Below are positions 44,105 to 45,380 of a stretch of DNA of 64,000 nucleotides, piece after piece; position 1 is the stretch's first letter; every line of letters begins with the position of its first letter. The position numbers were made by a program, and so were the translations under genes. Source of the DNA: Bradyrhizobium sp. (lineage in GTDB: Bacteria; Pseudomonadota; Alphaproteobacteria; Rhizobiales; Xanthobacteraceae); the NCBI RefSeq assembly GCF_016219575.1, contig NZ_JACRMG010000005.1, positions 186,001-250,000 on the forward strand, written 5' to 3'. The notes beneath the pieces are model-generated. The model was not told where the DNA came from and ran no database searches. It saw only the letters and a list, made by a program, of their open reading frames with translations.

Positions 44105-44178
44105 TGGAGCGGGTGAAGGGAATCGAACCCTCGTATTCAGCTTGGAAGGCTGCTGCTCTACCATTGAGCTACACCCGC
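44105..44178 (-). tRNA. tRNA-Gly (TCC)
   Basis: This is a 74-nt cloverleaf with CCA encoded. The acceptor stem is GCGGGTG/CACCCGC, the anticodon loop CTTCCAA gives anticodon TCC, and the T-loop is GGTTCGATTCC. Confidence 0.98.
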
Positions 44179-44356
44179 GCTAGGGGGTGACCTAACACGG
44201 CGCGCCACGGGTCTCAACCGCTGTGCAAGCCTCAAAATATGCAGTTCCGGCCTTAGATTCCAGGTCGCTGAGCGCGCCCCGGAATGACGGACAAGGCGCG
44301 CCAGGCCCTTAACGGCAGCCGATTCGCCGCCTATATTGGATTCTCCACTAACAACG

Positions 44357-44371
44357 AAAGGAGGTGATCCA
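44357..44371 (+). promoter_or_regulatory. Extended Shine-Dalgarno, perfect complement of the 16S 3' end
   Basis: AAAGGAGGTGATCCAG is the exact complement of the last 16 nt of bacterial 16S rRNA (CTGGATCACCTCCTTT); its final G is the first base of the following GTG. AGGAGG is 7 nt from that GTG. An internal TCACCTC (44392-44398) can pair with GAGGTGA of this site, giving a possible self-sequestering hairpin. Confidence 0.65.
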
Positions 44372-44416
44372 GTGTCTTGTTTCAAGCGCTGTCACCTCGC
44401 TGGGATCGCCCGCTAA
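44372..44416 (+). CDS. 14-residue ORF with an ideal ribosome binding site
   Basis: The ORF has 15 codons from GTG to TAA and encodes (M)SCFKRCHLAGIAR, a basic peptide with two Cys and one His. The ribosome binding site is the longest possible match to the 16S tail. A tRNA gene lies on one side, reading away, and a strong terminator (44475-44508) lies 58 bp downstream. This supports a small transcript of about 165 nt. It may be a leader peptide, a small protein or a riboregulator; no homologue was recognised. Confidence 0.55.
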   Translation: MSCFKRCHLAGIAR

Positions 44417-44474
44417 GGCCTGACAGCCTGGCAACGGGGCGTTCTCAGCCCTGGACCAGCGAGACAACAGTTGG

Positions 44475-44508
44475 GGCGCGGCGGGAGTTTTTCCGCCGCG
44501 CCTTTTTT
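44475..44508 (+). terminator. Rho-independent terminator
   Basis: A perfect 10-bp stem, GGCGCGGCGG (44475-44484) with CCGCCGCGCC (44493-44502), is followed by TTTTTT. It ends the short transcript that carries the 14-codon ORF. Confidence 0.92.
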
Positions 44509-44520
44509 GTTTGTCCTTGA

Positions 44521-44612
44521 GTCATTCCGGGGCGCGCGAAGCGCGAACCCGGAATCTGGAAATCGTCGATAGAGATTCCGGGTTCGGCCCTGCGGGCCGC
44601 CCCGGAATGACG
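44521..44612. repeat. Long nested palindrome (REP-like)
   Basis: The element opens GTCATTCCGGGGC and closes with its exact complement GCCCCGGAATGAC. Inside, CCCGGAATCT pairs with AGATTCCGGG, so the whole 92 bp can fold into one cruciform. A partial copy (CCCCGGAATGACGG) is at about 44276-44289. Confidence 0.85.
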
Positions 44613-44619
44613 GGTGGGG

Positions 44620-44811: not shown

Positions 44812-44981
44812 GACCCTCTCCGCTTGCGCAATTCCTGCGTTCTGCCCATCAGTCGTGCCCCGACTTCGCCACGTTCACACAGGCCACCCCGAAATCGTGT
44901 TTCAATTCGGTTTCGTGGGTGCGCGGATTGTCGGATTCGGCGCCGTTCCGGCGTCTTCCATCCGTGCGAATCGAAGGGAAA

Positions 44982-45380
44982 ATGAGGTTTTTGATGCTCT
45001 ACGCCATTCTCGCCTATCACGTCGAAACCGAGGTGAATTCCTGGAGCGCGGAAGAAGACGCCGCGCTGATGGTCAACCTCCGCAAGGCCCATGAGCGGCT
45101 CAACCAGGTCGGCAAGCTCGGCCCCGCGGCGCGGCTCGGCGAAACCAGGAAAGCGCGCACCCTGCGCGGGCCCGGCGACGGCATGATGATCGACGGGCCG
45201 TTCGCCGAGACCAAGGAGCAGCTGCTCGGCTTCTATGTCGTGGATTTTCCGGACGAAGCCGCTGCCGATGACGCGGTGCGCCACCTGCGCCGCGCCAATC
45301 CGAGCGCCGTCTATGAAGTGAGACCGATCCGGCTTTTCATTCCCGGCAACGCCTTCCCGGAGACTGCGGCCGAAAGTTGA
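44982..45380 (+). CDS. YCII-related protein (DGPF/PhnB-like)
   Basis: The 132-residue protein belongs to the YCII family of small alpha+beta barrels. Family marks are YAILAYHVE near the start, MMIDGPFAETKEQLLGFYVVD and the C-terminal YEVRPI. Members are often linked to ECF sigma factors, but none is next to it here. The start could be 44982 or 44994 (MLYAILAYH); GAGG lies 7 nt before the second. Reaction unknown. Confidence 0.88.
   Translation: MRFLMLYAILAYHVETEVNSWSAEEDAALMVNLRKAHERLNQVGKLGPAARLGETRKARTLRGPGDGMMIDGPFAETKEQLLGFYVVDFPDEAAADDAVRHLRRANPSAVYEVRPIRLFIPGNAFPETAAES

Follow-up and report, generated by a model that had tools for sequence, protein, structure and literature searches.

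A predicted CC2171-like small-RNA gene in Bradyrhizobium with a 14-codon reading frame behind a predicted self-masking complement of the 16S rRNA tail

Why a reading frame of only 14 codons should lie directly behind a perfect complement of the 3' tail of 16S rRNA is the question raised by a short locus in the window, the 64,000-nucleotide stretch of Bradyrhizobium sp. DNA analysed here. A first-pass annotation had described the complement as a 16-nt perfect match; the match is real, and against the 16S end of the same genome it extends to 17 nt (GAAAGGAGGTGATCCAG), the final G doubling as the G of the start codon. The GTG, the 14 codons and the closing TAA that it described are all in place. 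It had also given the element its own terminator with a 10-bp stem; a strong stem-loop followed by a T run is indeed present, with 12 pairs in the predicted fold and 14 in the terminator scan rather than 10, and 56 nt of further RNA separate the end of the reading frame from it. The position of the -10-like element would place the transcription start near 44343, and the locus as a whole is predicted to be a stand-alone small-RNA gene with an RNA of about 165 nt (Table 1). The element is adjoined by a divergent tRNA-Gly(TCC) at 44105-44178, and short CGGAATGACG-type repeats, intergenic repeats by their look, lie either side of it at 44280-44290 and 44518-44615.

Table 1. Features of the locus, in window coordinates.
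Feature	Position	Strand	Basis
-35-like element CTTAAC	44308..44313	+	promoter scan match; spacing kept in relatives
-10-like element CTATAT	44331..44336	+	promoter scan; spacing kept in relatives
Predicted ribosome-binding site, 17-nt perfect complement of the 16S rRNA tail CTGGATCACCTCCTTTC	44356..44372	+	16S end of the same genome; conserved
14-codon reading frame GTG...TAA, peptide MSCFKRCHLAGIAR	44372..44416	+	GTG at 44372, TAA at 44414-44416
Predicted hairpin H1	44361..44398	+	minimum-free-energy fold; 13/16 pairs invariant in 42 sequences
Predicted hairpin H2, containing codons 10-14 and the stop codon	44399..44449	+	minimum-free-energy and consensus folds
CTCGCTGG, spanning the H1/H2 boundary; alternative partner 44456-44463	44396..44403	+	44/44 elements
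CCAGCGAG, perfect complement of 44396-44403, mostly unpaired in the consensus fold	44456..44463	+	44/44 elements
Predicted P1 5' strand TTGTTTC, codons 2-4, class-type long-range helix	44377..44383	+	pairs with 44461-44467; competes with H1
Predicted P1 3' strand GAGACAA	44461..44467	+	partner of 44377-44383
Intrinsic terminator	44473..44510	+	stem-loop 44473-44504 and T run; scan, fold and alignment

One account of such a complement is that it is accidental, or that it is an antisense fragment of ribosomal DNA. Exact matches to the 16-mer number two in the 6.27 Mb of the same genome, one being the antisense of 16S rRNA and the other the present locus, against a chance expectation of about 0.003 (arithmetic at equal base frequencies); the 11-mer GGAGGTGATCC occurs seven times. 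No similarity to 16S rRNA was found beyond the tail, Watson-Crick complementarity stopping after 17 nt. A search of relatives had been named as a check, with loss of the element from close relatives as the outcome that would mark it as a chance rrn fragment; the unit is present in 33 of 35 genomes of the same genus, the two misses being drafts of 94% and 80% completeness. With the whole unit conserved and the complementarity limited to 17 nt, an origin by chance or from an rrn fragment was rejected, and on these sequence comparisons the extended complement at this locus is not a chance occurrence.

Conservation within the genus extends well beyond the binding site. Among the matches listed in a scan of named contigs there are 44 distinct Bradyrhizobium-type elements, and the listed contig titles are Bradyrhizobium or Bradyrhizobiaceae (those of L153-L190 are unlisted). 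The spacing of CTTAAC, 17 nt and a CTATAT-like hexamer is exact in 42 of these 44, with CTTACC and CTTGAA each seen once as -35-like variants, and the divergent tRNA-Gly(TCC) neighbours the element at 29 of 30 same-genus loci, the window among them. The reading frame is exactly 14 codons long in all 44 and closes with TAG (20), TAA (18) or TGA (6), never with a sense codon. All 44 share the peptide MSxxKRCHLAGIAR, an ending in KRCHLAGIAR having been the criterion for assigning elements to the clade. Not one nucleotide of codons 5-14 differs among the 44 sequences, synonymous sites included, whereas codons 3 and 4 vary in amino acid (Y, L, F, C and T, L, F, P, respectively), and selection therefore appears to act at the level of the RNA. 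Promoter, binding-site, reading-frame and terminator motifs thus recur jointly, and a conserved anatomy is well supported.

The first-pass annotation had matched the element to none of the feature types it knew, and here it was overtaken by a covariance-model search. The Rfam model RF01867 (CC2171) aligns with the window element over model positions 1-159 of 159, at 51.6 bits and E 3.5e-10 in a 261-nt stretch and at E = 2.0e-9 in a whole-genome search. CC2171 is catalogued as a Caulobacter sRNA, presumably one of those reported by Landt et al. 2008. The match lies below the curated gathering threshold of 75 bits, and an Rfam 15 scan of the window at curated thresholds returned nothing but tRNAs; because that threshold was tested and missed, we do not file the element as an Rfam member. 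The threshold is reached by only 13 of 85 matching genomes at class level. Two intermediates toward CC2171 were found, a same-family genome (G493) at 69.9 bits and a 14-codon MSHCHCRRLAVVAR form (L168), and because of these and the full-length match the window element is likely a distant relative of RF01867, a derived form below the cut-off. Passages of the Rfam 15 paper (a covariation table) and of a Mesorhizobium sRNA list record CC2171 as an RNA without assigning it a role, and in the literature on CC2171/RF01867 and on the binding-site letters, the latter including a paper on YbeY, as far as the texts seen extend, no description of a reading frame or a 16S complement was found.

With this model and strict filters, matches were found in 72 of the 150 order-level genomes, two of them with a second match, and in 85 of 385 genomes of the class, 79 with exactly one match and six with a second or third. 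An exact 18-letter pattern of binding site and start occurs in 36 of the 385. In a phylum sample of 299 genomes all 55 matching genomes belong to the window's class, whatever share of the sample lies outside it, and Caulobacter vibrioides was the only match among 14 control genomes. Fifty loci found by the model (20 picked at order level and the 30 best class-level matches) served for the binding site and start, with the qualification that the model itself includes those letters; 49 could be placed, the window among them and L213 failing a position filter. They start with GTG (30) or ATG (19), carry reading frames of 14-27 codons, and hold Watson-Crick complements of 11-18 nt, as measured against the tail of the window genome rather than that of each genome.

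A second set of 181 elements came from a pattern search in which the binding site and an RTG start are preset, and so is uninformative on both features. It was sorted by peptide pattern into four main types whose counts shift slightly between analyses: type A, the window's clade, with MSxxKRCHLAGIAR and 14 codons (44 elements); type B, MSHCH..., mostly 20-27 codons; type C, MSRxxLERGVGT..., 18 codons, on Rhodobacteraceae-type contigs (42 elements); and type D, MSSE...EQP.... Several members stand apart. Four elements (L044, L117, L147 and L159, the second and third being Azospirillum contigs by title) start at a AAAGGAGGTGATCCAATG site with MSHGA and run into a 56-59 codon reading frame with a signal-peptide-like N-terminus, and L057 has a similar secreted-looking frame of 57 codons. 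At L149, on a contig that is by title a Gammaproteobacteria MAG, the element is of type D and its long-range helix consists of 8 bp without a mismatch. In two Rhodobacteraceae-type loci (L075 and L078) the element lies directly upstream of a reading frame with a GGQ motif, which we take to resemble the ribosome-rescue factor ArfB.

The predicted structure of the RNA offers a first indication of what the element may do. The window RNA folds to a minimum free energy of -83.4 kcal/mol (z -5.3, with none of 200 shuffles as low), and with the terminator removed z is still -3.0, with one of 200 shuffles as low. The first-pass annotation had pointed out that TCACCTC within the coding part (44392-44398) could pair with the binding site, and in the predicted fold its partner is GAGGTGA at 44361-44367. 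This pairing forms the core of H1, in which the binding site contributes GAGGUGA and the start-codon region CAGUG, paired with UCACCUC and CGCUG, respectively, of codons 6-9 and lengthened in the window by CUUG:CAAG. Over the 44 elements GAGGUGA:UCACCUC has a mean predicted probability of 0.97. H1 carries no covariation support because it is nearly invariant. It is predicted to hide both binding site and start codon behind codons 5-9 of the frame itself, which would mimic the 16S tail, the masking strand being an in-frame imitation of part of it.

The second hairpin speaks to whether the reading frame is real. In a type A alignment of 42 sequences (L104 and L132 of the 44 were omitted, the terminator finder having overrun), the third base of the stop codon faces its H2 partner in the clade consensus fold as A-U in 18, G-C in 15, G-U in five and an unpaired A-C in four; the window is one of the A-C cases, and the base is unpaired in its own minimum-free-energy fold. 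When the window fold is applied to the alignment, seven pairs are changed on both sides against a shuffle mean of 3.6, with one of 500 shuffles as high, a count that sequence relatedness may inflate. Since the stop is always a stop while its third base covaries with the H2 partner, stop-codon pairing and termination appear to have been kept together in this clade.

Fixed length in the window's clade and the interchange of all three stop codons suggest, therefore, that the tiny reading frame is translated in CC2171-like RNAs. In type C the stop falls at codon 19 as TAG (21), TGA (11) or TAA (10), despite widely varying codons 13-18 (n=42), although, with a length of 18 being part of how the type was defined, this constancy lends support without being independent evidence. 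A CTGG block occurs in 50 type B elements and is missing from eight more; in 47 of the 50 its TGG is in frame 0, at codons 12-17. Between clades the positions of start and stop persist and the peptide does not. The stops of types A and C and the in-frame TGG of type B therefore favour translation with little regard for the peptide sequence. These observations weigh on the reading of the RNA as an ordinary non-coding sRNA that pairs with target mRNAs, its reading frame incidental. The filing of the family by Rfam as an sRNA and the conservation of codons 5-14 at RNA level agree with that account, but a stop kept through all three codons does not, nor does a 17-nt site placed right at the start codon, which in 49 of 49 model-found elements is GTG or ATG, and we consider it quite unlikely. 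They weigh further on the opposite account, in which the 14-residue peptide is itself the functional product. The peptide pattern is common to the whole of the clade that it helps to define, but RNA constraint can account for this given the lack of synonymous change, and the other types have peptides of unrelated appearance (MSHCHxP.., MSRKVLERGVGT.., MSSEI..), which leaves a micropeptide very unlikely. A copper-binding leader peptide, considered from CFKRCH in the window, was dropped, codon 3 being Cys in only 7 of 44.

The ribosome profiling study of Schrader et al. 2014 reports Caulobacter intergenic ncRNA regions to be untranslated and two earlier-predicted ncRNAs, of which CC2171 is possibly one, to be translated. 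A Bradyrhizobium study confirmed ten sRNAs, BjsR1 to BjsR10, by Northern blot, and expression of the present RNA may already be on record among them.

A short reading frame with alternative pairings and a terminator is also the usual anatomy of a leader-peptide attenuator of the next gene, and a leader peptide gene was one of the possibilities raised at first. It is disfavoured by the element's own terminator and by the downstream reading frames: across the 11 loci inspected in other clades, only two, both Rhodobacteraceae-type, have the same one. At those loci no conserved regulated gene was found downstream in the same transcript. In the window the next same-strand frame taken for a gene (44919-45380) begins about 400 nt past the terminator, the nearer ones at 44614 and 44750 being mechanical ORF calls. 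A role as leader of a downstream gene was rejected on this comparison, and attenuation seems to us extremely improbable.

Outside the window's clade, a second way of occupying the start region comes into view. The predicted long-range helix P1 has seven pairs in the window, one of them G-U, with non-standard pairs in the RF01867 model alignment. In that family the closing helix joins codons 3-5 to the bases ahead of the terminator, and its B-type form is present in the Rfam RF01867 consensus line. In types B, C and D pooled, pairing of codons 2-6 with the pre-terminator strand scored 13.48 for own partners against 10.50 for permuted partners (sd 0.29, maximum 11.33, 200 permutations). This pooled signal appears to arise mainly between types: own partners exceeded the swapped mean in 6/44 elements of type A, 38/57 of B, 20/42 of C and 14/24 of D, a within-type test of the 181 elements in which two had no terminator found. 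With a shorter strand, own partners in type A averaged 10.16 against 9.29 when swapped; in type C they were no better than swapped ones (10.74 against 11.05). Examples include CAUUGUC:GACAAUG in type B and, within type D, GUGAGAUU:AAUCUCAC, AUGAGAUU:AAUCUCAU, GUGAGU:ACUCAC and GUGAA:UUCAC, and the window's clade keeps the helix only partly. Consensus folding of types B and D found almost nothing, because their reading frames are too diverged.

Masking of the binding site itself follows a different distribution. Predicted accessibility, computed with eight shuffles each for the first 30 of 44 type A, 30 of 57 type B, 30 of 42 type C and all 24 type D elements, fell below its value with shuffled downstream sequence in 30 of 30 type A elements (0.12 against 0.28) and in 30 of 30 of the Rhodobacteraceae-type C elements (0.15 against 0.37). 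Lowered accessibility was not found in type B (0.41 against 0.30 in shuffles, lower in 9 of 30) or type D (0.38 against 0.33, lower in 7 of 24). Site masking is thus, in these models, not class-wide. The energy of the duplex between site and downstream sequence is a weak test of masking against shuffles: no more than 3 of 60 shuffles were as good in 2/44 elements of type A, 13/58 of B, 18/42 of C, 5/25 of D and 2/12 others. For type C the modelled evidence is for site masking and not for the long-range helix. In every type, part of the ribosome start region is predicted to be paired, by differing means, and the geometry would make a starting ribosome and these pairings mutually exclusive.

Taken together, our preferred reading is that of an sRNA gene of about 165 nt, a distant CC2171 homologue, whose 14-codon frame is translated from a site that matches the 16S tail over its full length and whose fold acts as a switch opened by the ribosome. 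We give this reading a probability of roughly 0.45, somewhat short of even. A 30S subunit would capture the binding site as it emerges from RNA polymerase, ahead of synthesis of the masking strand; the bound ribosome would prevent H1, read the 14 codons and terminate within H2, and with no ribosome at hand the RNA would close. Open and closed RNA could then differ in stability or in a segment left free for pairing with other RNAs, for example the invariant CCAGCGAG. The parts of this switch come from sequence comparison and its folds from prediction, and we infer translation, timing and output from these. The riboregulator that had been offered among the first interpretations, here with a real tiny reading frame, fits both the conservation and the predicted self-masking, whereas the leader peptide offered beside it is disfavoured, and the remark that the element fits no familiar feature type is to be corrected by the RF01867 match, below the cut-off as it is. 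Several results count against the switch: the weak duplex-energy statistics, the helix CTCGCTGG:CCAGCGAG, favoured in only 8 of 44 elements under a simulated ribosome on the start, the lack of masking in types B and D, the mixed within-type outcome for the long-range helix, the want of covariation in H1, the unpaired third base of the stop codon in the window and the untranslated Caulobacter intergenic ncRNA regions of Schrader et al. 2014.

The main rival is a ribosome decoy, raised in the first-pass annotation as a ribosome-titrating RNA, in which the RNA uses its 17-nt complement to bind free 30S subunits, lowering translation elsewhere, the reading frame serving as a clean exit for trapped ribosomes. 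Such a role is in keeping with the long complements of the model-found elements, with a site predicted to be more open in types B and D, and with a long-range helix that covers codons just downstream of the start. The site is nevertheless predicted to be shut in the window's clade and in the Rhodobacteraceae type, titration demands a very abundant RNA, and the kept stop positions exceed what a decoy needs; on balance we find a decoy rather unlikely. A broader version of the switch reading would make CC2171-type RNAs a class-wide sensor of free ribosomes, the balance between the real 16S tail and its mimic, and hence the free 30S supply, deciding between an open RNA that is translated and a shut one that is free for some other task. 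Every such RNA would present a perfect complement of the 16S tail and at least two CC2171 types would carry an intramolecular stand-in for that tail, and this extension strikes us as speculative and unlikely. Judged by the conservation of its start, stop and frame, an RNA family recorded as an sRNA resembles a very small mRNA whose Shine-Dalgarno pairing spans the whole 16S tail. If the switch reading is true, it would provide a natural readout of ribosome supply with no protein sensor, for which the invariant predicted mask makes the Bradyrhizobium form a compact test case.

Comparison with known systems places the element closest to CC2171. It shares with RF01867 the full-length model match and the same GAAAGGAGGUGAUCCAGUGUCU block, and the window has a 7-bp version of the long-range helix, for which support within the clade is mixed; it differs in its reading frame of 14 codons against 20-27 in other model-found elements and in the predicted H1 across the start region of its clade. 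The rnTrpL/peTrpL RNA of Sinorhizobium meliloti (PMC10117765) is likewise an alphaproteobacterial small RNA with a 14-codon reading frame, called a dual-function sRNA, but trpL is leaderless and sits in the trp attenuator, whereas the window RNA has an extreme predicted ribosome-binding site and lacks an obvious partner operon. SmelA075/SmelA099 (PMC3927594) also use Shine-Dalgarno/anti-Shine-Dalgarno pairing; they present anti-Shine-Dalgarno CCUCCUCCC loops, whereas the window RNA bears the Shine-Dalgarno strand together with an internal predicted mask. GsrN, a Caulobacter stress sRNA (PMC5869019), was likewise first listed by Landt et al. and differs by its description in a C-rich loop, a stress sigma factor promoter and homologs near stress genes; identity with GsrN was rejected on that description alone. 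Extended Shine-Dalgarno motifs, with small reading frames among the start sites, are described for Staphylococcus aureus (PMC13009471) as a general trait of initiation, whereas here the extended motif belongs to a dedicated RNA, usually one per genome.
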